In this document: positions 1,683-28,213 of the stretch, one piece after another
Layout: the number at the start of each line of letters is the position of its first letter
Position numbering within the stretch: the first letter of the stretch is position 1
IMG/VR virus record: IMGVR_UViG_3300034418_011721
Coordinates: 1-31,241 of that record
Origin: a virus
Strand: one strand, 5' to 3'
DNA: 31,241 nt
The notes under the pieces: generated by a model
What the model saw: only the letters and a program-made list of their open reading frames with translations
What the model was told of the DNA's origin: nothing
Database searches by the model: none
Translations under genes and position numbers: made by a program

Positions 1683-3551
1683 ATGGCGTTAGTCGTAAAC
1701 GATAGAGTTAAAGAAACCTCTACCACTACTGGTACGGGCGTTCTTACTCTTGCAGGAGCAGTAACAGGGTTTGAAACTTTTTCTAGTGCAATTGGAAATA
1801 CGAACACAACGTATTACGCAATTGTAAACACCGTTAATGCAGAATTTGAAGTTGGATTAGGAACAGTAGGAGCAGGTACTTTAACTAGGACTACTGTTAT
1901 ATCATCATCAAATTCTGATAGTGCAGTAGATTTTGCAGCGGGCACAAAAAATGTTTTCTGTACTTTACCGGCATCAAAATCAGTAATACTAGATGCAAGT
2001 GGAAACATTGTTGCAAACAATGGAAGTAACTTAACAGATTTAAATGCAAGTAATCTAACTTCAGGAACTGTTCCTGATGCAAGATTTCCAGCAACACTTC
2101 CAGCTTTAAATGGATCCGCACTAACAGCATTGAATGCAACACAATTAACTTCAGGTACAGTACCTGACGCAAGATTCCCATCAACACTTCCAGCTGCTAA
2201 TGGAAGTAATTTAACAGATTTAGTTGCTACAAATATAGCAACAGGTTTAGTTCCAACCGCAAGACTAGGAACTGGTACAGCTTCATCTACAACTTTTTTA
2301 GCAGGTGATCAAACTTACAAAACTATTACTGCAGACATTACAGCAGTCACAGCTGGGGATGGTTTAACAGGTGGCGGATCTTCAGGAGACGTTACATTAA
2401 ACGTTGGAGCTGGAAACTTAATTGATGTTCAAGCAGATCAAATAGATGTTGATCTTTCAGAATTAACTACATCTACATCAGACGCTGATGGAGATTTCTT
2501 TGCTGTAGTTGATGCAGCAAACGCACAGAAAAAACTTACAAAAGGCAATATTGCTATTTCAGGTTTTAATAATGACAGTGGATTCATTGATGGATCTGCT
2601 TTAAATGCTTCTAATTTAAGTTCAGGAACTGTTCCTGACGCAAGGTTTCCAGCGACTTTACCAGCTTTAAATGGAAGTGCTTTAACAAATTTAGATGCAG
2701 CTAATTTAGCGACTAATTTAGTTCCAACCGCAAGACTAGGTACAGGAACAGCTTCTTCTACAACTTTTTTAGCAGGGGATCAAACCTATAAGACTATTAC
2801 TGCAGATATTACAGGTGTTACAGCAGGTTCTGGTTTAACAGGTGGCGGAACTACAGGTGATGTTACATTAAACGTTGGTGCAGGTGCTCTTATTGATGTC
2901 ACAGCAGACGCTATCGATGTAGATTTATCAGAACTTACAACCTCTACTTCAAATGGAGATGGAGATTTTTTTGTTGTAGTTGATTCTTCTAATAATCAAA
3001 AAAAATTAACTAAAGGTAATATTAACAACTCAGGTTTTAATAATGACGCTGGCTACACAACAAACGTTGGTGACATTACAGGCGTTACAGCAGGATCTGG
3101 TTTAACAGGTGGTGGAGCTTCAGGTTCTGTTACCTTAAACGTTGGAGCTGGGACAGGTATTGATGTTGCAGCGGATGCAGTTTCAGTTGATGTATCAGAC
3201 TTTATGTCAAATGGTTCTAACAATAGAATTGTAACTGCAACAGGTACAGATGCAATGAACGCTGAAGCGAATTTAACATTTGATGGTTCTACCTTAACTG
3301 TAACTGGTGCCGCTTCTGTTGCAGGGCATATTACTCCAGGAACAAATGATACTTATGACTTAGGAGCTGTAGGAAATGTTTGGAGAAACATATACACTGG
3401 TGACTTACATTTATCTAACGAAGCAAAAGATGAAGGTAATGCTATTGATGGTACAAAAGGTAATTGGACAATCCAAGAGGGTGCTGAACATTTATATATT
3501 TTAAATAATAAATCAGGTAAAAAATATAAATTTAAGTTAGAGGAAATTTAA
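1683..3551 (+). CDS. Large tail fibre protein with tandem repeats
   Basis: The 622-residue fibre has an N-terminal domain (about 1-115) likely to attach to the virion. Repeated segments with signatures SGTVPDARFP, LVPTARLGTGTASSTTFL, GLTGGG..G.VTLNVGAG and DVDLSELTTSTS occupy about residues 115-505. A C-terminal cassette starts near residue 548 (NDTYDLGA, then WRNIYTGDLHLSN) and ends with a basic tail. The repeats are imperfect and in phase at 157 residues. The C-terminal cassette is also carried by the 234-residue fibre at 4804. The protein presumably forms a trimeric beta-helical or beta-prism shaft for host recognition. Its stop overlaps the start of a small gene (TAATG), a usual position for a fibre chaperone or assembly factor. 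Confidence 0.8.
   Translation: MALVVNDRVKETSTTTGTGVLTLAGAVTGFETFSSAIGNTNTTYYAIVNTVNAEFEVGLGTVGAGTLTRTTVISSSNSDSAVDFAAGTKNVFCTLPASKSVILDASGNIVANNGSNLTDLNASNLTSGTVPDARFPATLPALNGSALTALNATQLTSGTVPDARFPSTLPAANGSNLTDLVATNIATGLVPTARLGTGTASSTTFLAGDQTYKTITADITAVTAGDGLTGGGSSGDVTLNVGAGNLIDVQADQIDVDLSELTTSTSDADGDFFAVVDAANAQKKLTKGNIAISGFNNDSGFIDGSALNASNLSSGTVPDARFPATLPALNGSALTNLDAANLATNLVPTARLGTGTASSTTFLAGDQTYKTITADITGVTAGSGLTGGGTTGDVTLNVGAGALIDVTADAIDVDLSELTTSTSNGDGDFFVVVDSSNNQKKLTKGNINNSGFNNDAGYTTNVGDITGVTAGSGLTGGGASGSVTLNVGAGTGIDVAADAVSVDVSDFMSNGSNNRIVTATGTDAMNAEANLTFDGSTLTVTGAASVAGHITPGTNDTYDLGAVGNVWRNIYTGDLHLSNEAKDEGNAIDGTKGNWTIQEGAEHLYILNNKSGKKYKFKLEEI
2134..3057 (+). repeat. Two 471-base tandem repeat units within the tail fibre gene
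   Basis: Unit 1 (about 2134-2586) and unit 2 (about 2605-3057) align at a constant offset of 471 bases, or 157 codons. I checked this at four places: the SGTVPDARFP codons (2150 vs 2621), the VPTARL codons (2251 vs 2722), GLTGGG (2361 vs 2832) and SGFNND (2560 vs 3031). A third, partial copy of the GLTGGG module starts near 3099. The differences are mostly third-position changes, so the duplication is not very recent, or it is held by selection. It encodes fibre shaft modules. Confidence 0.85.
3326..3548 (+). repeat. C-terminal fibre cassette, copy 1
   Basis: This segment encodes NDTYDLGAV.NVWRNIYTGDLHLSN and the following GTKGNWT.QEG and basic tail. It matches 5271-5493 in the other fibre gene at an offset of about 1945 bases. 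Most differences are silent. Confidence 0.8.
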
Positions 3552-4803: not shown

Positions 4804-5508
4804 ATGGCAAATACTACATCAACAAGTTTAAAATTAACTGTACAAGCTACTGGAGAAAATTCAGGGACTTGGGGTCAAATTACTAATACTAATTTACTTA
4901 TTTTAGAGCAAGCTATTGGTGGATATGATGCAGTAGGTTTAAATGCAACCACTGGTGCAACCTTGACTTTTTCAAATGGTGTTTTATCAAATGGTAAAAA
5001 TCAAGTTTTAAGATTAACAGGAACTATTACAACTGCTGTTAATGTTACAATTCCAGACTCTATAGAAAAAACTTATTTAGTTGAAAATGCAACAACAGGT
5101 GCCTTTACCGTAACCTTTAAAACAACTAGTGGGACAGGAGCTACTTGGTCTACCACAGACAAAGGGTATAAAATTTTATATTCAGATGGAACTAATGTTG
5201 TAGATATTACAGCAGACTTAGGAGATATTACTGCTGGCGACGTTACTTCAGGGAGCATAACTGCTACAGGAAACATTGTACCTGGTGCAAATGATACTTA
5301 TGATCTAGGAGCTGTAAGTAATGTATGGAGAAACATATATACAGGAGACTTACATCTTTCTAATAAATTTAAAGAAAAAGGTAATATAGTTGATGGAACT
5401 AAAGGAAATTGGACTTTACAAGAAGGTGAAAGTGATATATTTATGATTAATAATATATCTGGAGAAAAATTTAAAATTAATTTATCTAAGATAAAAGGAG
5501 ATTCATAA
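4804..5508 (+). CDS. Short tail fibre protein sharing a C-terminal cassette
   Basis: The product has 234 residues. The N-terminus (TSLKLTVQATGENSGTWGQ, then NTNLLILEQAIGG) is the standard start of many marine phage fibre or baseplate-associated proteins, with a conserved GTWG turn. Beta-rich sequence follows to about residue 155. The C-terminal ~75 residues repeat the cassette of the 622-residue fibre (NDTYDLGAV, NVWRNIYTGDLHLSN, GTKGNWTLQEG). Two fibres with different N-terminal halves and a common C-terminus suggest either a shared attachment or chaperone-recognition tip, or a recombination hot spot for host-range change. It is preceded by a predicted promoter and its stop overlaps the collar gene start (TAATG). 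Confidence 0.75.
   Translation: MANTTSTSLKLTVQATGENSGTWGQITNTNLLILEQAIGGYDAVGLNATTGATLTFSNGVLSNGKNQVLRLTGTITTAVNVTIPDSIEKTYLVENATTGAFTVTFKTTSGTGATWSTTDKGYKILYSDGTNVVDITADLGDITAGDVTSGSITATGNIVPGANDTYDLGAVSNVWRNIYTGDLHLSNKFKEKGNIVDGTKGNWTLQEGESDIFMINNISGEKFKINLSKIKGDS
5271..5493 (+). repeat. C-terminal fibre cassette, copy 2
   Basis: This is the second copy of the segment at 3326-3548. The two copies share the amino acid pattern DTYDLGAV, NVWRNIYTGDLHLSN, GTKGNWT and QEG, with many synonymous differences. Confidence 0.8.
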
Positions 5509-6095
5509 TGGGACTATTTTCAGACGGAACAGAAATTATTAATGGGGGAGAACTACTAGAAGGTGGTATTCCTACAGCAACTATTGTTCCATGGACAGAT
5601 TCATCAGTACCATCTGGATTCTTAGAATGTAATGGTGCAGCAGTTTCAAGAACAACTTATTCTGCATTATTTGCAATTGTAGGTACTACTTACGGCGCAG
5701 GTAATGGTTCAACCACTTTTAACGTTCCTGATTTAGCAGATAACGTACCAGTTGGAAAATCTAATAACAAAGCTTTAGCATCTACAGGTGGAGCAAATAC
5801 TGTAACCTCAACAGGAAATGTTGCTGGTTCAACAGCAAATGCTACTTTATCGACACCGCAACTTTCTTCTCATAGTCACTCTGTCGCTTTAAACGCTGGT
5901 ATGACAGGTGGAGAACCTTTTACAGTACAACAAATTTCCAGACCTCAATTTGGTAATGGACAACCTATATCTGCTACCTCAGGTAATGCAGGAAGTGGTG
6001 GTGGTCACTCTCACAATATGAGTGCAAACTTTAGTGGTGATGCAACTTCCGTTGTTCAACCTTATTTAGCATTAATTTATATTATTAAAACTTAG
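5508..6095 (+). CDS. Tail collar domain protein
   Basis: This 195-residue protein has a clear phage tail collar domain (residues about 24-80): IVPWTDSSVPSGFLECNG, then a YSALFAIVGTTYG segment and the FNVPDLADNVPVG signature. The C-terminal part is Gly/Ser/Asn-rich. It contains two HxH pairs, SHSHS (His122/His124) and GGHSHN (His167/His169), which in T4 short and long tail fibres bind metal ions along the trimer axis. The chain ends with the hydrophobic LALIYIIK typical of this family. It therefore looks like a trimeric tip protein of the tail apparatus. An AAGGAG ribosome site lies before the start, which overlaps the previous stop. Confidence 0.85.
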   Translation: MGLFSDGTEIINGGELLEGGIPTATIVPWTDSSVPSGFLECNGAAVSRTTYSALFAIVGTTYGAGNGSTTFNVPDLADNVPVGKSNNKALASTGGANTVTSTGNVAGSTANATLSTPQLSSHSHSVALNAGMTGGEPFTVQQISRPQFGNGQPISATSGNAGSGGGHSHNMSANFSGDATSVVQPYLALIYIIKT

Positions 6096-6102
6096 GAGAA
6101 AA

Positions 6103-6489
6103 ATGGCAACGAACGCAACATGGACAGTAGTATTTGAGGACCAAACAGTTATTAAGCAGACAGGAGATGCTGCAAAAACTGGTTATATTATTAACGATGA
6201 TGTTTTTTGGAATCAATCTAAATTTTCAAACATTTGGGCTATTCAATATGGTACTTCAAATACTTCTGATGAAGTAGAATATAGAGATGGCACTCCTCAC
6301 TCTGCTTATGATTCCTCTGTATTAGGTGATATTAATGATTTTATTACAAGATGGGATTCAGCTCATTTAGCAAAGTTACAATCTGATTGGGACAACGATA
6401 ACCTTGTTAATGATGATGGTACTCCTGCTGAAACAGAAGCAGAAAAGATTTCTAGACTTGGGGCTAGACCAACTTCTTATTCTTCATAA
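6103..6489 (+). CDS. Conserved marine phage protein of unknown function
   Basis: The 128-residue acidic protein has a beta-rich first half (WTVVFEDQTVIKQTG, then FSNIWAIQYGT) and a helical second half (DFITRWDSAHLAKLQSDWD). Similar 'WTVVFEDK.II' proteins follow the collar or fibre genes in many marine phages, without assigned roles. AGGAG overlaps the stop of the collar gene. The last 13 bases overlap the 3' end of the opposite-strand dioxygenase operon, leaving no room for a classical terminator between the convergent units. Confidence 0.6.
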   Translation: MATNATWTVVFEDQTVIKQTGDAAKTGYIINDDVFWNQSKFSNIWAIQYGTSNTSDEVEYRDGTPHSAYDSSVLGDINDFITRWDSAHLAKLQSDWDNDNLVNDDGTPAETEAEKISRLGARPTSYSS

Positions 6490-6983
6490 TCTTCTATAAA
6501 CAAAGTTGCCGTAAATCTTTTAAGATTTACAATTTCACTTTTTTGAGGAGAGTGCATCCAATTAGACGGAAATAAAACAGCTCTGTTTTCTCTAAAACCT
6601 ACGTGAATATCCAATTCACCTTTAGTATAAAAAACAGTTCCATTAGTTACTGCAGTAGGCCCACTAATCATTATAAGAGCATTTAATTTAGAAAGTCCTA
6701 CATCATCGTGTGGAATAAAACGATTTAAATTTCTTTGATCTATTCCTGAACTATGTTGTATTTTATTAATTTTGATATTAAATTTTTTTTCAACTTGTTT
6801 AGTAAATATTTTTTCAATCGCTGGTTCGTATGTAAAATACCATCTATTACCATAAAAATTTTCTTGATTTTTTTCTGTAGTGCCTTCAAGAAAACAAGGT
6901 GAATAAAAAGCTTTATTCAAAGTAAAATCTTGTATAAATTTTAAATCATTTTCTTCAAAAAAATTATCTAATATTTTAATCAT
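6477..6983 (-). CDS. 2OG-Fe(II) dioxygenase-fold protein (operon gene 6)
   Basis: This 168-residue double-stranded beta-helix protein has a complete facial triad. HDD supplies His92 and Asp94 in FIPHDDVG, the distal His144 is in NWMHSP, and the 2-oxoglutarate-binding Arg156 is in KRFTATLF. The stretch GTVFYTKGELDIHVGFRENRAVLF matches the first gene of the operon (9230-9778, GTGFYHKGNLNTYIGFVENRAIFF) closely enough to call the two paralogues of the DUF6445-like 2OG group. It is the promoter-distal gene of the six-gene minus-strand operon and overlaps its upstream neighbour by eight bases. The substrate is unknown. Confidence 0.75.
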   Translation of the reverse strand: MIKILDNFFEENDLKFIQDFTLNKAFYSPCFLEGTTEKNQENFYGNRWYFTYEPAIEKIFTKQVEKKFNIKINKIQHSSGIDQRNLNRFIPHDDVGLSKLNALIMISGPTAVTNGTVFYTKGELDIHVGFRENRAVLFPSNWMHSPQKSEIVNLKRFTATLFIEDYEE

Positions 6984-7575
6984 TTTTAAGCATCATCCAA
7001 GAAGTTAAAATATATTTTTCATTAGATAGTGGTGAGTTACCTCTATGAACATATGGGAAACTTGCAGGCCAAATAACTATTCTACCTTTTTTAGGTTTTA
7101 CTCTTTTTGAGAAATGTAAAAATTCTGTTTCTCCTCCTTCTTTCACATCATTTAAATATATTGAAAAAGCAAAAGCACGCGATGCAGTATCGTATGTTCT
7201 TCCATGTTCAACATGCCAAACATGATATCCTTGAGTAGGTAATGTTTTTTGTATCTTTAGAGTGGTAAAATGAAGAGGTACTTGATCGTAAGTTTCTGAA
7301 GCACCTGTATTTTGATCATAATGAATCCAAGCTAACTCATAATTAACCATCATACTTTTTAATTCACTCCACCAAATGTTTAAATTATCCGGTGTTGCAA
7401 AATATTGATTATCGTGTTTATGTAATACCGATGCATTTTCAAATTGAATTCTATTTAATGTTTTATTAAATTTATTTTGATCTTCAAACAATTTAATCGC
7501 TTTGTCACATTCTTCTGGTAAAATGTAGTTATCGTAAACTCCAATAAAATTTTCTATGTTAGCTGTTTTTTTCAT
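6976..7575 (-). CDS. Prolyl-4-hydroxylase-like 2OG-Fe(II) oxygenase with HxE ligand pair (operon gene 5)
   Basis: The 199-residue product has the core layout of the prolyl 4-hydroxylase family: YHVWHVEHG (His118, His121, Glu123), then FSIYLNDVKEGGETEFL, KPKKGRIVIWPASF, distal His177 in YVHRGNSPLS and Lys187 in EKYILTSW. The usual HxD is replaced by HxE, a variant seen in the phage subgroup with the YHxWHxE signature. Lysine instead of arginine as the 2OG carboxylate partner is normal for P4H enzymes. It overlaps gene 4 by 17 bases and gene 6 by 8. Peptidyl proline hydroxylation is possible but not shown. Confidence 0.8.
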   Translation of the reverse strand: MKKTANIENFIGVYDNYILPEECDKAIKLFEDQNKFNKTLNRIQFENASVLHKHDNQYFATPDNLNIWWSELKSMMVNYELAWIHYDQNTGASETYDQVPLHFTTLKIQKTLPTQGYHVWHVEHGRTYDTASRAFAFSIYLNDVKEGGETEFLHFSKRVKPKKGRIVIWPASFPYVHRGNSPLSNEKYILTSWMMLKND

Positions 7576-8167
7576 GTATTTTTTTTATTTCTTTTTCTAA
7601 ATTATATATTGCAGGGCTATTTTTTGCCATATTAAATATTAAACTATATCTTTTTTCTTCATTTTTTGATGCGTCAAAACCATGAAGTATGTTTGGAGGA
7701 AATATATAATATTCTCCAGGTTGAGGAGTTATTTTTAAATTTAGTTCTGGTAAAATTAAATCACAACCTTTGGTTAAATACAAAATTCCATGATAACAAG
7801 GGTGCTCGTGATAAGACACTAAATCACCTTTTTTTATTTCATTACCCCAAGCATCACTAATTATATTTTTTGAAAAAAAATATTGGAACAAATCAGGATG
7901 AGTTGTTTGATGATTATTTATTAAATAAGTTATGAATTTGGTAAATGAGGGTTTATTTAAAAAATAAGTCCAATCTGTCATTCCACCTTTTACGTTTGTG
8001 TAATTTTCCATATTTGAATTTAAATTATTTTTTATCTCCATTATAAATTGATGAATAAGTTCTGGCAAAAAATATGTGCCAAAAATAATTTCTACTTTTC
8101 TTGGGTAAGTAATAACTAAACTATTTTTGTGTTCATTGATTTTATTTTTATCTAGAATATTTATCAT
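7559..8167 (-). CDS. Cupin/2OG-Fe(II) oxygenase-like protein with HxH motif (operon gene 4)
   Basis: The 202-residue protein has an N-terminal helical half and a C-terminal beta-helix barrel from about residue 105. Likely metal ligands are His120 and His122 in SYHEHPCYHGILYL and His162 in NILHGF; Arg173 in EKRYSLIFNM is the likely 2-oxoglutarate anchor. PQPGEYYIFPPNILH is the usual turn before the distal histidine. HxH instead of HxD is expected for the 2OG-FeII_Oxy_5 (PF13759-like) group or for cupins, so the chemistry may differ from its neighbours. It overlaps gene 3 by ATGA. The substrate is unknown; a metal-binding but non-2OG role is possible. Confidence 0.7.
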   Translation of the reverse strand: MINILDKNKINEHKNSLVITYPRKVEIIFGTYFLPELIHQFIMEIKNNLNSNMENYTNVKGGMTDWTYFLNKPSFTKFITYLINNHQTTHPDLFQYFFSKNIISDAWGNEIKKGDLVSYHEHPCYHGILYLTKGCDLILPELNLKITPQPGEYYIFPPNILHGFDASKNEEKRYSLIFNMAKNSPAIYNLEKEIKKIHEKNS

Positions 8168-8697
8168 TTTTTTTTGCCTGTATCTTTAAAATAAGAATCA
8201 TACTTGTGATGAGTAAATGGACCGTGTTGATTTACATAGTGAAAAAAAACTTGAGCTATACCCTCTCCTTTATAAATACCCGGTCTTCCGTGTTTTTGAT
8301 CACAACCTGCATATAAAACTGCATCACCTTCTTTTAACTCAAATGATGTTCCTTCAACTATAATAGGCCAGTTATCATATTTTTTTACACAGGCTGTAAC
8401 AGATATTTCACATGATGGCCTGTCGGTATGTTTTTTTAAAGTGGCACCAAAAACATAATATCTCCAATAAGCGTAAGTAGGAAATAGTTTTAAGTTACTT
8501 TCTTTTTCTACTAAAGGTAATTTTGTATCTAACAAAGCAGTCATTAAAGGATCATGGTACCACGCAGGTGAAAAAGACTGATTATCAATTTGATAATCTT
8601 TATTTTGATCCACTTTATTATAACAGTATTTTTGATAAACTTTTAATTCATCTTTATTAAAAAAATTTTTTATTAATTTATAATTTACTGCAGCCAT
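8164..8697 (-). CDS. 2OG-Fe(II) oxygenase-like protein lacking the usual 2OG arginine (operon gene 3)
   Basis: This 177-residue protein has the sequence YWRYYVFGATLKKHTDRP, giving the HxD pair His90/Asp92. Next come a beta segment EISVTACVKKYDNWPIIV, the turn LKEGDAVLYAG, and distal His136 in QKHGRPG. Instead of the usual R-x-S strand about ten residues after the distal His, it has IAQVFFHYV, so the 2OG-binding basic residue is missing or moved (Arg138 is a candidate). The KH.R...QVFFHYV ending is characteristic of a phage/bacterial subgroup, which argues for a functional variant. The C-terminus is basic (KDTGKKK). It overlaps gene 2 by 13 bases. Confidence 0.7.
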   Translation of the reverse strand: MAAVNYKLIKNFFNKDELKVYQKYCYNKVDQNKDYQIDNQSFSPAWYHDPLMTALLDTKLPLVEKESNLKLFPTYAYWRYYVFGATLKKHTDRPSCEISVTACVKKYDNWPIIVEGTSFELKEGDAVLYAGCDQKHGRPGIYKGEGIAQVFFHYVNQHGPFTHHKYDSYFKDTGKKK

Positions 8698-9230
8698 GAT
8701 ACTATACTATATCTAGTTCCTTTTGTTATAGGTTGAATACTATGTGGATACATAAAATTACTAGGAAAAAAAACTATTGATCCTTTACAAAGTTTTATTC
8801 TTTTAATTTCTTGATCTTTTTGATCTGTAAAAATTAAATCTCCACCTTTATATTCATCGTTAAGATTCATAATTACACTTAAATATCTAAGTGAGTTACT
8901 ATAATGATCAGTGTGAATTTCATATTTTCCACCAGGGTAATATTTTAATAAGTCTATTTGATTAACAATACTACTATCCATTTTTGGAAATTTAGATTTG
9001 TAATGAAAATATAATCTTTCTATTTCAGTTTTAATATAATTCCAATAAAAAAGGTTTGTAGGAGTATTAAAATTTAAATGATATCCATTTACATTTCTTA
9101 TGTCAGTACATACTCCACTTTTCACACTTAATTTTTTTTTAGATTTTTTATTTATCAAAGGTATAATTTTATCTATAAATTCAGGGGAAATAATATTTTT
9201 TAATTCAACAATAAAATCTGTATGATCCAT
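8685..9230 (-). CDS. 2OG-Fe(II) oxygenase, P4H superfamily (operon gene 2)
   Basis: This is the most canonical of the six, at 181 residues. LLKYYPGGKYEIHTDHY gives His106 and Asp108, followed by SVIMNLNDEYKGGDLIF, the turn CKGSIVFFPSNF, distal His163 in YPHSIQPI and Arg173 in TRYSIVSWL. All four catalytic or binding positions of the P4H/PKHD-type family are present and correctly spaced. The N-terminal ~60 residues are the usual helical support with a Lys-rich patch (KKSKKKLS). The start shares base 9230 with the stop of gene 1 (TAATG). Protein hydroxylation is the most common activity of the family, but the substrate cannot be read from sequence. Confidence 0.85.
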   Translation of the reverse strand: MDHTDFIVELKNIISPEFIDKIIPLINKKSKKKLSVKSGVCTDIRNVNGYHLNFNTPTNLFYWNYIKTEIERLYFHYKSKFPKMDSSIVNQIDLLKYYPGGKYEIHTDHYSNSLRYLSVIMNLNDEYKGGDLIFTDQKDQEIKRIKLCKGSIVFFPSNFMYPHSIQPITKGTRYSIVSWLQ

Positions 9231-9778
9231 TATTTTTTTACTCCATAAAATATACCTAAAGTATATCGGGCACTACTTTCCCCTAAACCTTGTAAACAAG
9301 TATGGTAAATATCACATCCATTAAAAAAAATAGCTCTGTTCTCTACAAAACCAATATATGTATTTAAATTTCCTTTATGATAAAAACCAGTTCCATTATA
9401 CGTAATTTCTTTACCTTTAAGATATATTAAACAATTAAATTTGTTTTTGTAAATTCCTTTAGCACAAGTAGTATCCTCATCTACGTGAGGACTTAAATTA
9501 TTTTTATTATCTCTCATTTGAAAGCCTGCAGAAAGAACTTCTAATTTATTGTTGTTTGGAAAAAAACAATTTTTAATTTTGTCAAAAATCCATTTGTTTT
9601 CTTTATTTTGCTTAAACTCATGAGATAAACCATATAAACCAAATTCATTAGTATTTGGAGAATAACTTATTTTATTTAAATTATTTACTAAAATATTGTA
9701 TTCACTATCACTAAAAAAATCATCAATTATTTTAAGATTTAAGGCGTTAACTGCAGGTTTAATAATTACATCTTTCAT
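9230..9778 (-). CDS. 2OG-Fe(II) dioxygenase-fold protein (operon gene 1)
   Basis: The 182-residue protein is the promoter-proximal gene of the minus-strand operon. Motifs are LSPHVDEDT (His98, Asp100), GFYHKGNLNTYIGFVENRAIFF, IYHTCLQG (His159) and SARYTLGIFYG (Arg171), a complete set of iron and 2-oxoglutarate ligands. It is a paralogue of the last gene of the operon (6477-6983). There is no clear Shine-Dalgarno sequence before the ATG at 9778; the leader is only about 20 bases if the predicted promoter is right. The start was chosen because the protein begins with a normal beta-strand/helix lead-in and no other start lies nearby. Confidence 0.75.
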   Translation of the reverse strand: MKDVIIKPAVNALNLKIIDDFFSDSEYNILVNNLNKISYSPNTNEFGLYGLSHEFKQNKENKWIFDKIKNCFFPNNNKLEVLSAGFQMRDNKNNLSPHVDEDTTCAKGIYKNKFNCLIYLKGKEITYNGTGFYHKGNLNTYIGFVENRAIFFNGCDIYHTCLQGLGESSARYTLGIFYGVKK

Positions 9779-9780
9779 TC

Positions 9781-9801
9781 TTTATATATTTAATATATAA
9801 A
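9781..9801. repeat. Perfect 10-base inverted repeat between divergent operons
   Basis: TTTATATATT, one central T, then AATATATAAA form a perfect dyad in the 30-base gap between the dioxygenase operon and the 646-residue virion gene. It is a candidate operator or bidirectional promoter core. Being entirely A/T, it could also arise by chance or simply melt easily. Confidence 0.5.
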
Positions 9802-9803
9802 CC

Positions 9804-9831
9804 ACTATATGCTACAAAAATTAAATTTCAA
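9804..9831 (-). promoter_or_regulatory. Predicted minus-strand promoter of the dioxygenase operon
   Basis: Read on the minus strand, TTGAAA (9831-9826) is followed after 16 bases by TATAGT (9809-9804). The expected start point falls inside the inverted repeat at 9781-9801, just before the ATG of operon gene 1. On the plus strand a TATAAA at 9796-9801 would place a start at about 9808, making the 9809 gene nearly leaderless, which fits its lack of a Shine-Dalgarno sequence. Confidence 0.4.
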
Positions 9832-11749
9832 GCCCGGTTTTGACAAAATGGTTACAGAATCAGGGGCCGAAAGTCGATGGATCGATGGCGATTTTGTTAG
9901 ATTTAGATATGGACTACCTGAAAAAATAGGGGGTTGGTCACAACTTACTAATTCTAATAATACATTACCAGGTGTAGCAAGAGCGCAACATGCGTTTGCT
10001 GCTATAAATGGTGAAAAATATGTAGCTATAGGAACCTCACAAGGTTTATTTTTATATTACAGTGGAGAATTTTTTGACATTAGTCCTTTAGCTACAGCCA
10101 TTACTGGAGCTACCTTTGATGCAACGTCAGGATCTTCAACAGTTACAGTTAACAAAACTGCTCATGGTTTATTAGATGGAAGATATGTAACATTTTCATC
10201 TGTTACCGTCCCATCTGGCTCAGGTTATGCAATAAGTGATTTTACAGATAATACTTTTGAAGTATTAAACAAAACAGATAATACTTTTCAAATTACAATG
10301 CCTACAAATTCTGCAGGTTCAACATCAGCGACTGGATCAGCAACAATTGATCCTTATGAAATTGTTGGTCCTACTTTTCAAACTGCAGGTTTAGGTTGGG
10401 GTACAGATACATGGGGCTCAAGCACATGGGGAACTGCAAGTGCAACTAGTAATGTAATTTTAGATCCAGGTTTATGGTCTTTAGATAATTTTGGTCAAAT
10501 ACTTGTTGCAACTATTCACAATGGTAAAACATTCACTTGGAATGCAGGTGCCGGAACCCCTAGAGCAAACAGAGCAGCCATTATGTCAGGTGCACCTACT
10601 AAAACAAGATTAACACAAGTATCTGATAGAGATAGACATGTATTTCATTTTGGAACAGAAACAACTATTGGCGATATCACAACTCAAGATCCAATGTTTA
10701 TTAGATTTAGTGATCAAGAAAATTTTAACGTATATCAACCAACAGCAACTAATACTGCAGGGACGTTTAGATTAGATAAAGGTAACGAAATTATTGGAGC
10801 TGTATCTGGTAAAGATTATACTTTGGTTTTAACAGATACATCAGCATATGTAATTCAATTTGTTGGACCACCATTTACTTTTTCAGTTAGACAAGTTGGT
10901 ACTAACTGTGGATTGATTGGACAAAATGCACTTAGTTATTCTAATGGTATTGTGTTTTGGATGTCAGGGGAAGGTGGGTTTTTTATGTTTGATGGTACTG
11001 TAAAATCTATTCCTTGTGAAGTTGAAGACTTTGTATTTAGCACAACAGGGGATAATTTAGGAATTAATCAAAGTTCAAATCAATTAGTTTATGCAGAACA
11101 CAACACATTGTATAATGAAATTAATTGGTTTTATGCCGAGTTTGGATCTACTCAAATTAATAGATGTGTAGTATATAATTACGCAGAAAGGGTTTGGACT
11201 ACCTCATCATTAGCTAGAACTAGTTATATAGATCAAGGACTTTTTGATTTGCCTTATGCAACGGAATACAATTCGACCTCTTTACCTAACTTTCCAATTC
11301 AAGGTATAACAGCAACCTATGGTGCATCTATTTACTATGCTCATGAAACCGGAACCGATCAAGTAAATTCATCTGGTACAACTTCTATTGATGCTTTTAT
11401 TCAATCAGGTGATTATGATATAGCAAGTAGATCAAGTGCTTTAGGAACTCAAACAGGTGTTGCAGACTTTAGAGGAGATGGTGAATATATCATGTCAGTT
11501 AAAAGATTTATACCTGATTTTCAGGTATTAGAAGGAAACTCAAAAATTACTTTACTTCTAAATGATTACCCTAATGGCACAGCTGCAAGTTCTCCCCTTG
11601 GACCCTTTACAGTTAGCTCATCTACTGATAAAGTAGATACTCGTGCAAGGGCAAGACTAGTAGCACTTAAAATAGAAAATGATGCAGTTGGAGAAACCTG
11701 GCGTTATGGTACTCTTAGACTGGATGCAAAACCAGACGGAAGAAGATAA
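9809..11749 (+). CDS. Large nozzle/stabilisation-like virion protein
   Basis: The 646-residue protein starts with KLNFKPGFDKMVTES, then GRWIDGDFVRFR-like and LPEKIGGW segments, the hallmark of a family of podovirus tail-hub proteins often labelled 'phage stabilisation' or nozzle proteins. A small inserted beta domain at about 105-190 (STVTVNKTAHGLLDGRYVTF, then DNTFQITMPT) resembles modules found in several phage structural proteins. The rest shows repeated short beta blades with Trp/Phe/Tyr (GWGTDTWGSSTWG; VSDRDRHVFHFG; GEGGFFMFDG), consistent with a propeller. It probably plugs the tail channel below the adaptor. It has no Shine-Dalgarno sequence, and its promoter region is shared with the divergent operon. 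The start is supported by the conserved N-terminus. Its stop overlaps the next start (TAATG). Confidence 0.7.
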   Translation: MLQKLNFKPGFDKMVTESGAESRWIDGDFVRFRYGLPEKIGGWSQLTNSNNTLPGVARAQHAFAAINGEKYVAIGTSQGLFLYYSGEFFDISPLATAITGATFDATSGSSTVTVNKTAHGLLDGRYVTFSSVTVPSGSGYAISDFTDNTFEVLNKTDNTFQITMPTNSAGSTSATGSATIDPYEIVGPTFQTAGLGWGTDTWGSSTWGTASATSNVILDPGLWSLDNFGQILVATIHNGKTFTWNAGAGTPRANRAAIMSGAPTKTRLTQVSDRDRHVFHFGTETTIGDITTQDPMFIRFSDQENFNVYQPTATNTAGTFRLDKGNEIIGAVSGKDYTLVLTDTSAYVIQFVGPPFTFSVRQVGTNCGLIGQNALSYSNGIVFWMSGEGGFFMFDGTVKSIPCEVEDFVFSTTGDNLGINQSSNQLVYAEHNTLYNEINWFYAEFGSTQINRCVVYNYAERVWTTSSLARTSYIDQGLFDLPYATEYNSTSLPNFPIQGITATYGASIYYAHETGTDQVNSSGTTSIDAFIQSGDYDIASRSSALGTQTGVADFRGDGEYIMSVKRFIPDFQVLEGNSKITLLLNDYPNGTAASSPLGPFTVSSSTDKVDTRARARLVALKIENDAVGETWRYGTLRLDAKPDGRR

Positions 11750-13291: not shown

Positions 13292-13511
13292 TAATATTTT
13301 AAAAATAGATTGTACTACAACAGTAGTATTAAGAAATACTAGAACAAATAAGATATACAAAGACGAAGCAGAGAAAGAAGCTGATATAGCAGATCCTAAT
13401 ACTGAAACAGTCGCAGAGCATATTGCTCAAGATTTAACAGTACAGGTATCTCCGAAAGGACTAAACATTTTACAGAAAGTCATGAATGATAATAAGAAAT
13501 CAAACACCTAA
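13284..13511 (+). CDS. Small phage protein of unknown function (75 aa)
   Basis: The 75-residue protein has an N-terminal beta hairpin (ILKIDCTTTVVLRNTRTNKIY) and a C-terminal helical part ending LNILQKVMNDNKK. Acidic stretches (DEAEKEADIADPNTE) separate them. It overlaps both neighbours, by eight bases upstream and 26 bases downstream, where the glycosyltransferase start lies inside its last codons. The pattern resembles small proteins preceding glycosyltransferases in other marine phages. No function can be assigned. Confidence 0.6.
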   Translation: MDDNILKIDCTTTVVLRNTRTNKIYKDEAEKEADIADPNTETVAEHIAQDLTVQVSPKGLNILQKVMNDNKKSNT

Positions 13512-14433
13512 AGGTGGAACAGAATTACAGTTTGAGTATTTAGAAAAATACGTAGATAAAAAATTATTAGATCAAGTTCAGATTACAACATCTGTACCTG
13601 AAAAAATTCCATTACATCCAACTAAAGTAAATATACTTTGGCAAAAGAATTCATATGATCAACCGAATCTTGCACCATGGTTTCAAGATAAATCTAATCA
13701 TAAAAAGTATGATTGGTATGTTTTTAATTCTCATTGGACTTTTGAAAAATTTAGAATGATGTTTGGATTACCATTAGAAAAATGTGTAGTTATTAAAAAT
13801 GGTATAGATTACATTAAAAAAGCTGAACCTTACAAAGAAGGTGACCCTATAAAAATCATTCATCAAAATACACCGTGGAGAGGATTATCTGTTTTACTTG
13901 GTGCTATGCAATTAGTTAAGAACCCATTAATTACTTTAGATGTTTATTCATCAACAGAAATATATGGCAAAGATTTCATGGAAAAAAATGATGATAACTA
14001 TAAAGAACTTTATGAACAAGCAAAACAATTACCTAATGTAAACTACATAGGTTACAAACCTAATAGTTATATTAAAGATAACATACATAAATATAATATG
14101 TATGTGTATCCAAGTATATTTGAAGAAACATCTTGTATATCTTTATTAGAATGTATGGCAGGTGGTTTATATTGTATCACAACCAATTTAGGTGCACTAT
14201 TTGAAACAGGTGCAGAGTTTCCAATGTATGTTCCTTATGATGATAATTATATGAGACTAGCTTCTAAATTTGCTTATGGAATAGAAGCTGCAGCTAAAAC
14301 TTTACATCATCCACAAATACATAATCACATAGAGTCACAATCTCATTATGTTAACATTTATTACAATTGGAATAAAATAGGCAATGGATGGACCAATTTT
14401 TTAAAAGGAGCTATCAATGCAAAATCCCAATAA
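13486..14433 (+). CDS. GT-B fold glycosyltransferase (family 4-like)
   Basis: The 315-residue protein resembles GT4-type glycosyltransferases. It has an N-terminal GGTELQFEYLEKY donor/acceptor loop (about 10-22), an NSHWTFEKFRMMFGLP linker strand-helix near 81-96, and then VVIKNGID. The C-terminal Rossmann-like half has IIHQNTPWRGLSVLLGA, LPNVNYIGY, and IFEETSCISLLECMAGG, in which Glu214 and Glu222 form the EX7E nucleotide-sugar signature. TTNLGALFE completes the family pattern. It has no membrane segment, so it is cytosolic. The start overlaps the preceding gene by 26 bases, and the chosen ATG gives the expected short lead before GGTE. It is followed by a GT-A enzyme, suggesting a joint sugar-transfer job on DNA, protein or envelope. 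Confidence 0.85.
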   Translation: MIIRNQTPKGGTELQFEYLEKYVDKKLLDQVQITTSVPEKIPLHPTKVNILWQKNSYDQPNLAPWFQDKSNHKKYDWYVFNSHWTFEKFRMMFGLPLEKCVVIKNGIDYIKKAEPYKEGDPIKIIHQNTPWRGLSVLLGAMQLVKNPLITLDVYSSTEIYGKDFMEKNDDNYKELYEQAKQLPNVNYIGYKPNSYIKDNIHKYNMYVYPSIFEETSCISLLECMAGGLYCITTNLGALFETGAEFPMYVPYDDNYMRLASKFAYGIEAAAKTLHHPQIHNHIESQSHYVNIYYNWNKIGNGWTNFLKGAINAKSQ

Positions 14434-15316
14434 ACCTATATGGTTTAACAAACCTGATGATTCAGAAGTAACCACAATTAATTTAACAGAAGCTAGTAAA
14501 CATTCTAATTATAGAATAATGGTGTGTACTCCTTGTCATAGTGATACTTCTATGCATTACACACAAGCTGTTTTAAAATTTCAACAAGAGTGTATGCAAA
14601 AAAGAATACAAGTTAGTTTTACATTATTAAAATCTTCTTTAGTTACACAAGGTAGAAATTTATGTGTAGCTGAAATGTTAAATCATCCTGATAATTATAC
14701 TCATTTATTATTCATAGATTCAGATATCGACTTTCAATTTTCTACTATTGAAAAAATGTTAGATGCAGATCGTGATGTTATAGCATGTCCTTATCCTATG
14801 AAAATGTTAGACTGGGATAAGATATGGAGAAGAGTCAATAATAAAGAAGATGCAATTACCTCTGCTCAAGATTTATCAAGAGCTGGCTTTACTTACCCAA
14901 TAAAAGTAAAAGATAAAAATAACATTATAGCTGATAAAGGTATCATAGAAGTAACTCACGCTCCTACAGGATGTATGTTAATTAAAAGAAAAGTATTAAC
15001 CAGCATGATTGAAAAATACCCTGAGTTAGAAATATTTCAACCCACTTACATTAATGGTGTAGAAGAAAAAAAAGATAATATGTATAACTTATTTGACACA
15101 ATCCATGACCCTAAGACTAAGCGTTATTTTGGTGAAGATTTTGGTTTTTGTGAGAGATGGGGTAAAATGGGTGGTAAGGTTCATATCTACGTAATGGATG
15201 TAATAACACATGTTGGAGAGTTTCAATACTGTGGTAGTTTTTATGATGATTTATACCAAGGTCATAGACCTGCAAAGCATGCCAAACCGCTTGACGAAGA
15301 TACAAAAATCAAATAA
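14417..15316 (+). CDS. GT-A fold glycosyltransferase (GT2-like)
   Basis: The 299-residue protein has the GT-A hallmarks IMVCTPCHSDT (about 34-44), GRNLCVAEML (79-88), and the metal-binding DxD in LLFIDSDIDF (Asp101-Asp103). GCMLIKR, YFGEDFGFCERW and THVGEF follow near the C-terminus. It is a clear paralogue of the 235-residue enzyme at 27506, sharing FIDSD, GRN, the GED motif and the terminal TH.G.F. An AAGGAG site lies ahead of the start, which overlaps the GT-B gene by 17 bases. The two enzymes are co-expressed within the structural region. Acceptor and sugar are unknown; candidate acceptors include hydroxylated protein side chains made by the neighbouring dioxygenases. Confidence 0.85.
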   Translation: MQNPNKPIWFNKPDDSEVTTINLTEASKHSNYRIMVCTPCHSDTSMHYTQAVLKFQQECMQKRIQVSFTLLKSSLVTQGRNLCVAEMLNHPDNYTHLLFIDSDIDFQFSTIEKMLDADRDVIACPYPMKMLDWDKIWRRVNNKEDAITSAQDLSRAGFTYPIKVKDKNNIIADKGIIEVTHAPTGCMLIKRKVLTSMIEKYPELEIFQPTYINGVEEKKDNMYNLFDTIHDPKTKRYFGEDFGFCERWGKMGGKVHIYVMDVITHVGEFQYCGSFYDDLYQGHRPAKHAKPLDEDTKIK

Positions 15317-25880: not shown

Positions 25881-27509
25881 ATGAAAGAATTTAGAAAATA
25901 TTTTGGTGGACTAGAAAGAGACTTTGGTTTCTGTAATGTTAACAATGGTTATCATGATCCACAAACAAACAAATTAAAATTTGATCCAGGCGATTATGGC
26001 TGGTCTAAAAGAAATATATCTGATCAAGACTATCAAGATCATTTAGATGGTAAACGTGCAATAGGTATACAAGCATGTGATGATAATGGTATGGCTAGCT
26101 TTGGTGCAATCGATATTGATCCGTCTGATTATTCTAGTTTTGATATTCATCATTACCTAAAAGTAATTGAAGACAAAGATTTACCTGTCGTTCCAATTAA
26201 ATCAAAAAGTAATGGACTTCACATATATGTATTTACAGCAGAGAAAGTACCTGCAACTTTAATTAGAGAATTTTTACAAAACTTATTATTCTTATTTGGA
26301 CTATCATCTAAGACAGAAATATTTCCAAAACAAACACAGTTAGGTATGAACCAAGATAATGTCAGAACTTCTGGATCATTTATTAACTTACCTTATTTTA
26401 AGAAAACAGAACGTAAAGCATTGTTACCTGATGGAAAAGAATTAGAGTTCGAAGATTTTTTAAATGTAGTCAAAGACAATCTACAAACAAAAGAATCATT
26501 AAAAGAAGTATCAAATAAAAAAGTAAAAGAAATATTAACTGGTGGTCCTGATGATTTATTAGATGGTCCTCCATGTCTACAGATGATATGCAAACAGGTT
26601 CAGGAATCAGGGAACAAACTAAAAGACGAGCGAGATAGATTTTTATTTAACTACATGGTGTTTGTTAAAAAGAAACACAAAGATGATTGGAAGAAAAAAT
26701 TAATACAAGCTGCAAGAGATTTTATTCAGTATGATGACACTTGGGGTGATGCTAAAGTAAATGAAAAAATAAAAAGTTGGGACAAAGATACAGCTGGTCA
26801 TACCTGTCATGACTTACCTATCTCTTCTTATTGTGCAAAAGGAACTTGCTTACGTAGAAAATTTGGTATTGGAAGTCATAAAGAAAGCAGCTGGCCTCAG
26901 ATATCAGGGCTAATTAAAATAGACTATAAACCTGACCCAGAATATTTTTTTAATGTAGAACTCTCTGACAGTAAGGTAGTTCAAATACATGCTAAACACA
27001 TAAAAAAGATAGCAGAAATGAAAGAGATGAGAGCGCTCATAGCAGACCAAACATCTATATTCCCTCCCATTATTAAGAATAATGAATATCAGCCTATCCT
27101 GGACGCTCTATGGGCCACTAAAGAGGACATTAAACCACCTGCAGGGACTAATCCAATTGAGATGTTAAAGAAATACTTAGAAGACTATGTCAATGGACCA
27201 GAGGCTACTACCTTTGCTTCTTTTAAAAGTGGAGCTGTACTAAAAGATGAAGAGTATTATTACTTTGACTACGATAAATTCTATGAAGAGATTAAAAGAA
27301 ATGAGTGGACAAAAGACAGACCTAGAACTGCAACTTTAATAAAGAGTCATTTCAAAGCTGAGTTTGGATTTCAGAAAAGATTTCCTAAAGGAGAGAATGA
27401 AAAATCATTTCCACCGGTCAGGTGTATAAAAATGCCTGCAGATGATTTGATGAAAGAAGAGATACCAGAAGAAAAAATAACAATAGAAGATAAGGAGAAC
27501 ATAGTATGA
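25881..27509 (+). CDS. AEP-type primase (TOTE-like) with cysteine-rich domain
   Basis: The 542-residue protein has an archaeo-eukaryotic primase catalytic domain. FGAIDIDPSDY supplies Asp78 and Asp80 for metal binding, KSKSNGLHIYVF the sGLH motif (His114), and TEIFPKQTQ (145-153) and VRTSGSFINLPYF the remainder of the active site. From about residue 228 to 330 comes a helical region with five cysteines: PPCLQMIC (232, 237), GHTCHDLP (309), SYC (318) and GTC (323). It ends in RRKFGIG and resembles a PriL/PriCT-like Fe-S or zinc module. The C-terminal 200 residues are helical and acidic. It makes primers for the family A polymerase encoded downstream. The ATG follows the GC-rich hairpin. Its end overlaps the glycosyltransferase start by ATGA. 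Confidence 0.8.
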   Translation: MKEFRKYFGGLERDFGFCNVNNGYHDPQTNKLKFDPGDYGWSKRNISDQDYQDHLDGKRAIGIQACDDNGMASFGAIDIDPSDYSSFDIHHYLKVIEDKDLPVVPIKSKSNGLHIYVFTAEKVPATLIREFLQNLLFLFGLSSKTEIFPKQTQLGMNQDNVRTSGSFINLPYFKKTERKALLPDGKELEFEDFLNVVKDNLQTKESLKEVSNKKVKEILTGGPDDLLDGPPCLQMICKQVQESGNKLKDERDRFLFNYMVFVKKKHKDDWKKKLIQAARDFIQYDDTWGDAKVNEKIKSWDKDTAGHTCHDLPISSYCAKGTCLRRKFGIGSHKESSWPQISGLIKIDYKPDPEYFFNVELSDSKVVQIHAKHIKKIAEMKEMRALIADQTSIFPPIIKNNEYQPILDALWATKEDIKPPAGTNPIEMLKKYLEDYVNGPEATTFASFKSGAVLKDEEYYYFDYDKFYEEIKRNEWTKDRPRTATLIKSHFKAEFGFQKRFPKGENEKSFPPVRCIKMPADDLMKEEIPEEKITIEDKENIV

Positions 27510-28213
27510 CGAAAAAATTACCAAGTGTATTTGTATGTATGCCTACATATGATACCATGCAGGTGGCAACATGTTTATCATTAATAAAATTAATGGATAA
27601 ATTTACACAAGCAAAAATAAAATCTACAGTAAGTACATTTAAATGTCCTTATGTAGGCTATGGAAGAAATGTTTTAACCGCAATGTTTTTAGAATCAGGT
27701 TTTGACTATCAATTATTTATAGATTCAGATGTAGAGTTTGATCCAAAAGTAGTAGGACGAATGTTAGTGTCAGAAAAAGATATGATCTGCACACCGTACA
27801 GAAAGAAGACACAAGATAATACAATAAAATATTCTGTAGCATTTAAAGATCCTACTGACATTAAAATAGATAACAAGGGTTTAACAGAAATAACTGTAGG
27901 GCCTGCAGGGTTAACTTTAGTACATAGAAGAGTTTATGAAAAACTTATGAAAGATCATCCACATTTAAAAATAAAACAAAAAGAAGCTATATCCGAAAAA
28001 GCAAATTCATATTTTTATAATTTTTGGGATACAGTGTTTGATCAAAAATCTGGTTATTGGTGGGGAGAAGATACACATTTTTCTAATCTTGCAACACAAG
28101 CAGGTTTTAAATTTTATGCTGTAGTTGATGGAGAAACAACTCATCATGGCAACTTTGGATTCACGGGAACTTTACTAGATACTTTTAAAAGAACCGATGA
28201 AAAAGCCAATTAA
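27506..28213 (+). CDS. GT-A fold glycosyltransferase within the replication operon
   Basis: The 235-residue protein shares the motif order of the GT-A enzyme at 14417: VFVCMPTYDT, GRNVLTAMF (about 53-61), DxD in LFIDSDVEF (Asp73-Asp75), GPAGLTLVHRRVY, YWWGEDTHFS and the terminal TTHHGNFGF. It is about 65 residues shorter, lacking the N-terminal extension and some C-terminal sequence. The start overlaps the primase stop (ATGA), and its end overlaps the UvrD-like helicase by 17 bases, so it is produced together with replication enzymes. That timing would suit glycosylation of phage DNA or of a host component early in infection. Acceptor and donor are unknown. Confidence 0.8.
   Translation: MTKKLPSVFVCMPTYDTMQVATCLSLIKLMDKFTQAKIKSTVSTFKCPYVGYGRNVLTAMFLESGFDYQLFIDSDVEFDPKVVGRMLVSEKDMICTPYRKKTQDNTIKYSVAFKDPTDIKIDNKGLTEITVGPAGLTLVHRRVYEKLMKDHPHLKIKQKEAISEKANSYFYNFWDTVFDQKSGYWWGEDTHFSNLATQAGFKFYAVVDGETTHHGNFGFTGTLLDTFKRTDEKAN

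Follow-up and report, generated by a model that had tools for sequence, protein, structure and literature searches.

A row of six antisense oxygenase-like genes is part of an exchangeable tail-tip module in an HTVC027P/HTVC023P-type pelagiphage

Several non-orthologous, closely spaced 2-oxoglutarate (2OG)-Fe(II) oxygenase genes have been described in HTVC023P-type pelagiphages, in which the gene annotated as ferrochelatase always adjoins a 2OG gene (Wittmers et al., 2022, PMC9599517). Those genes were presented as auxiliary metabolic genes that are close to each other without being contiguous, whereas the six genes considered here form a contiguous row at positions 6477–9778, on the minus strand, of the IMG/VR virus record IMGVR_UViG_3300034418_011721. 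The whole record of 31,241 bases, referred to below as the window, represents part of the genome of an HTVC027P/HTVC023P-type pelagiphage, i.e., a relative of phages infecting SAR11; its virion protein (9809–11749) is 68% identical to the counterpart in HTVC027P and 59% identical to that in HTVC023P. We numbered the genes D1 to D6 by increasing window coordinate, the order of transcription being D6 to D1.

The closest described locus is that of HTVC027P, where genes gp72–gp74 occupy the same slot, lie on the antisense strand, and overlap each other. Gp73 is the orthologue of D2 (72.8% identity) and gp74 is the orthologue of D3 (67%); however, the slot of HTVC027P contains three genes instead of six. 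At the position of D1 it has gp72, a PF13759 protein with no relation to D1, and it lacks counterparts of D4, D5, and D6. In HTVC023P and 023Pt_psg01, related genes are located at the tail-fibre locus in the sense orientation. The window is a new, large example of a widespread kind of cassette that has already been described.

The six open reading frames (ORFs), each starting with ATG, encode proteins of 168–202 amino acids (aa), and the successive overlaps from D1 to D6 comprise 8, 17, 4, 13, and 1 nucleotides, bearing out the claim of six overlapping antisense genes made in the initial annotation of this DNA. The row lies between a collar gene followed by a small ORF (5508–6489, plus strand) and the virion protein gene (starting at 9809, plus strand). 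The same six-gene array is found, identical, in two further IMG/VR contigs with differing dataset prefixes (L003 and L083), making an assembly artefact less likely. The median ratios of nonsynonymous to synonymous substitution rates (dN/dS) are 0.12–0.22 across all six families, and hence all of them are under purifying selection.

The comparison of the window with contig L233 delimits an exchanged module. The two sequences match at 93.8% of nucleotides from position 9809 on, this position being the start codon of the gene for the virion structural/“stabilization” protein (phrog_3287, plus strand), and again up to about position 5204 within the gene for a tail fibre-like protein (4804–5508, plus strand), whereas between these two boundaries L233 differs in the tip and has another set of oxygenase genes, located on the sense strand. 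In the window, the module includes the gene for a tail collar domain protein (PF07484; 5508–6095, plus strand), probably the tail-tip/receptor-binding protein, and the gene for its small partner (6103–6489, plus strand), whose 3′ end overlaps D1 by 13 nucleotides. We refer to tips with the collar protein and the small ORF as type A, and to the other tip as type B. With the virion protein as the anchor, sense cassettes and a different tip are seen in many close relatives.

Both the strand and the enzyme families of the cassette are partitioned by the tip type. Type A cassettes are all-antisense in 122 cases and mixed in eight, none being all-sense, while among type B cassettes 27 are sense and one is antisense. 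D2 is present in 169 out of 170 type A cassettes and in none of the 30 type B cassettes; the D5 cluster, in 108 out of 170 vs. none out of 30; another D5-like cluster, in none out of 170 vs. 27 out of 30; and D4 is present with both tip types. Since kinship inflates the p-values of such counts, the virion protein was used to construct a tree. It features at least five changes of the tip type on supported branches, the window (type A) being sister to L233 (type B), and the strand goes with the tip type in a mean of 4.7 out of five independent pairs and never against it (p = 0.0625). Given the boundaries seen in L233, the partition of strand and families by the tip type, and the switches on the tree, the tip and the oxygenase cassette are exchanged together. 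This linkage persists despite the fast turnover of the cassettes, with 55 compositions among 124 of them.

The antisense placement of the row had been considered an oddity, and the row itself unusual. In the sample anchored on the small tail ORF, and thus chosen independently of the oxygenase content, antisense oxygenase genes are found in 56 out of 56 loci and sense ones in none, so that the placement, shared by HTVC027P, is normal for these phages. The 50 complete intervals of this sample contain one to six genes, with a D2-family gene in each, and the only interval with six is the cassette of the window itself; hence, six genes do represent the upper end of the range. They are not unique, though: among 166 dereplicated loci, a set biased by having been collected mainly via similarity to D2, D4, or D5, the longest same-strand run varies from one to nine genes, and runs of seven to nine are found elsewhere. 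In one related contig, the same slot has an alternative occupant, three large tail proteins with no oxygenase genes (L250:696–3776).

Five of the six products can be placed in the 2OG-Fe(II) oxygenase-fold superfamily with near certainty, by Pfam matches (D2, D3, D5), a confident fold model (D6), and homology to D6 (D1). D2 (6976–7575, 199 aa; H121xE123…H177…K187), a PF13640/phrog_61 oxygenase and the core gene of the collar-type cassette, and D5 (8685–9230, 181 aa; H106xD108…H163…R173) match PF13640 above the Pfam cut-off, D5 having an additional weak match to PF09859. D3 (7559–8167, 202 aa; H120xH122…H162…R173) matches PF13759 with 27.3 bits vs. the cut-off of 27. D6 (9230–9778, 182 aa; H98xD100…H159…R171), the first gene of the row, has no Pfam match; its AlphaFold model is confident (predicted local distance difference test, pLDDT, 87.6; predicted template modelling score, pTM, 0.85) and, according to Foldseek, matches solved 2OG oxygenases, among them PHD2 and the viral collagen prolyl hydroxylase (vCPH) of PBCV-1, with E about 1e-6. 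D1 (6477–6983, 168 aa; H92xD94…H144…R156) has a weak PF13640 match (E 0.034) and is a paralogue of D6 (31% identity, 1e-13). Both D1 and D6 are PHD/P4H-like, the predicted resemblance of D6 to prolyl hydroxylases being one of fold only. For D6 in a sequence search of PDB, and for A1 and A2 in profile searches, no convincing relative was obtained, and tblastn of D6 against the phage collection yielded no match.

According to the family alignments of D1–D6, the metal triad is invariant within every family, and the Arg or Lys expected for 2OG binding is invariant in five out of six families. Variants of the triad are HxH instead of HxD/E in D3 and HxE, combined with Lys, in D2. The initial annotation listed six different enzymes; instead, they form four relatedness groups, that is, D1 with D6, D2 with D5, D3, and D4.

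D4 (8164–8697, 177 aa; H90xD92…H136) belongs to the phrog_2954 family, named ferrochelatase both in PHROGs and in GenBank. We reject its identification as a genuine ferrochelatase, as D4, gp67 of HTVC023P, and the homologues from HTVC008M and S-CAM8 match no Pfam family even at E up to 10. The D4 profile matches D6 with the probability of 75%, the HxD motif and the distal His being in register (controls, at most 1.4%), and residues H90, D92, and H136 are invariant and aligned with the metal ligands of D6. The predicted structure of D4 has low confidence (pLDDT 66.7), and its best structural matches are 2OG oxygenases with E 0.065 or worse, none of them significant. Judging by the profile and the ligands, D4 probably has the oxygenase fold; the assignment of all six products to this fold holds for five of them and is less sure for D4. 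Members of phrog_2954 were observed at 8164–8697 of the window and in three other contigs (L085:12289–12909, L228:5983–6624, and L229:4878–5486). The phage “ferrochelatase” family is probably misannotated across marine phages, and its oxygenase-like nature would strike the supposed haem-synthesis step from phage annotations.

D5 looks like an obligate partner of D4. A D5-family gene is located directly upstream of 105 out of 125 D4-family genes, with the overlap of 13 nucleotides in 103 of these 105 cases; in the Synechococcus phage S-SCSM1, D4 and D5 are fused into one protein, and in HTVC008M and S-CAM8 the D4 gene is preceded by a PF13640-type gene. From the near-fixed pairing, the fusion, and the gene order, we infer that the two proteins form a complex or catalyze consecutive reactions. 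In some bacterial genomes, the neighbours of D4 relatives include PF13640 domains joined to Sel1 or TPR repeats, and in a metagenome-assembled genome of Acidobacteria a D4-family gene adjoins the gene for a 786-aa protein that combines a PF13640 oxygenase, TPR repeats, and a GT41 O-glycosyltransferase (L393:6177–8537). Such fusions next to bacterial D4 relatives hint at protein substrates. A pair of the D4–D5 type was also observed in the SAR11 single-cell genome SAG-MED28, on a 275-kb contig (L398:4995–6193), about 3.7 kb from the gene for the 20-kDa subunit of NADH dehydrogenase.

Tentatively, we suggest that the cassette encodes protein hydroxylases modifying the linked tail-tip proteins. 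This suggestion is based on the linkage to the tip type, the presence of protein hydroxylases (PHD2 and the viral collagen prolyl hydroxylase) among the fold neighbours of D6, the fusions seen beside bacterial relatives of D4, the phage glycosyltransferase gene 3.7 kb downstream of the cassette, and the four 2OG genes that immediately precede the tail-fibre genes of cyanophage S-SCSM1. With Fe(II), O2, and 2-oxoglutarate, the enzymes would hydroxylate tail-tip protein side chains late in infection, the substrates being products of the same module, namely, the collar-domain protein, its small partner, and the C-terminus of the fibre. D2 would then be responsible for the central reaction at the collar-type tip, with D5 and D4 coupled to each other and D1, D3, and D6 as optional additions. 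The effect of hydroxylation might be to adjust stability, assembly, or contact with the receptor, or to make residues ready for the glycosyltransferase encoded by the phage. It is rather doubtful that each receptor-binding tip type of these abundant marine phages travels with a matched hydroxylase set, with the D5–D4 pair at its heart, which would constitute an undescribed post-translational maturation system of adhesins.

Several observations weigh against hydroxylation of the tip. Within type A, the cassette composition is not correlated with the similarity of collar proteins (partial Mantel p = 0.98; tip part, p = 0.74), and so no fit between the optional enzymes and particular collar variants is apparent. 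The independent-pair test rests on only five pairs, the tip types were assigned by blast to few reference proteins, and the tip-type sample was drawn from close relatives. D4 has no identifiable 2OG-binding Arg or Lys, the late Arg being replaced by Gln149, and its structure model is weak. Finally, co-transfer without shared function can also yield linkage. The initially proposed joint action on the virion is strengthened by the linkage to the tail-tip module, while the failure of the composition to follow the collar sequence within type A speaks against it.

The foremost alternative, though an unlikely one, is a hitchhiking moron cassette, that is, unrelated auxiliary enzymes with separate targets, gathered in a recombination-prone slot by the tail tip and carried along with the tip solely owing to their location. 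It would agree with the diversity of compositions and the absence of co-variation with the collar sequence, with the G+C content of the cassette genes (26–30%, vs. 34–36% in most flanking tail genes), and with the scattering of 24 2OG genes over many places in S-SCSM1 (PMC9602691). However, it does not account for the retention of D2 in type A and its absence from type B despite the rapid turnover of the other genes, nor for the near-fixed D5–D4 pair, and cargo accumulated at random would be expected to include other kinds of genes, while here one superfamily is seen throughout. Even less likely is modification of the host surface or envelope, with the oxygenases altering glycans, lipids, or outer-membrane proteins and, e.g., blocking superinfection by phages with the same tip: this would explain the linkage to the tip type without virion substrates, and phytanoyl-CoA-type relatives are annotated in HTVC008M, but the proteins that D6 resembles most closely in fold are mostly hydroxylases acting on proteins and small molecules.

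A metabolic role, via drawdown or sensing of 2-oxoglutarate or otherwise in host nitrogen and carbon metabolism, has been proposed for cyanophage 2OG genes (PMC3037559), and host iron-uptake genes are raised by HTVC027P infection (PMC12753301); we consider this role improbable for the cassette, as it leaves unexplained the partition of enzyme families by the tip type and their exchange with the tip, and consumption of 2OG needs no array of divergent enzymes. Still more improbable is a role in nucleic-acid modification, repair, or anti-defence, with DNA or RNA of the phage or the host as the substrate. The D1/D6 family carries PHROG labels like “DNA endonuclease V,” and the weak PF09859 match of D5 points in the same direction, but the label is at odds with the fold and the ligands, and the families adjoin tail genes rather than replication genes. 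The fold matches of D6 include NMAD-1 of C. elegans, a DNA demethylase; prolyl hydroxylases, however, dominate these matches. Structural, non-catalytic iron-binding virion proteins of the Ferrojan horse type, a hypothesis discussed for HTVC027P (PMC12753301) and compatible with the position among tail genes, are very improbable here, since the invariant, presumably 2OG-binding Arg or Lys in five families, besides the metal ligands, points to catalysis.

The gene overlaps and the conserved divergent start region make a single transcript for the row plausible at the sequence level. The 30-nucleotide spacer between D6 and the virion protein gene (9779–9808) is AT-rich, with the consensus CTTTCATTCTCTATAAAACTAATATATAAG, and is conserved over type A loci even when the first cassette gene differs; it is a possible divergent promoter, which would allow transcription of the row as a separate operon, independently of the tail genes. 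The scan for promoters and terminators revealed no terminator and no promoter signal above chance. The candidate TAATATATAA was rejected as a general phage promoter motif, with 12 matches vs. 13 expected.

The tail proteins at 1683–3551 and 4804–5508 are 52% identical over a C-terminal segment of 108 residues, which could be an attachment or chaperone domain common to both. The regions 13486–15316 and 27506–28213 of the window contain the glycosyltransferase gene (PF00534) and two phrog_1574 genes, one of which has weak glycosyltransferase matches.

Similar arrangements are known from other phages. In the T4-like pelagiphage HTVC008M, a row of five oxygenase-fold genes runs opposite to neck and tail genes and has a D4-family gene in the last position, but this phage belongs to another family and the row adjoins neck genes. 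In S-SCSM1, whose large set of 2OG genes has been published (PMC9602691), four 2OG genes (ORF240–243) directly precede the tail-fibre genes, and ORF248 is the D4–D5 fusion; unlike the window, S-SCSM1 is a cyanomyovirus with its 2OG genes at many sites and in the sense orientation relative to the tail-fibre genes. The PBCV-1 enzyme (PDB:5c5t, 5c5u) and human PHD2 have the same fold and HxD…H…R site as D6, but are only 10–17% identical to it. In the open-licence literature, we found no papers testing tail proteins as substrates of phage 2OG oxygenases and no prior report of the linkage to the tip type, the near-fixed D5–D4 overlap, or the oxygenase-like nature of the “ferrochelatase.” The linkage of enzyme families and strand to the tip type turns the vague label of auxiliary metabolism into a directly testable idea of tail-tip protein hydroxylation. 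The clustering of 2OG genes in these phages has already been published (PMC9599517), whereas in the set described here the “ferrochelatase” itself is oxygenase-like, and what is new is that the cassette, tied to the tip type, is part of an exchangeable tail-tip module.

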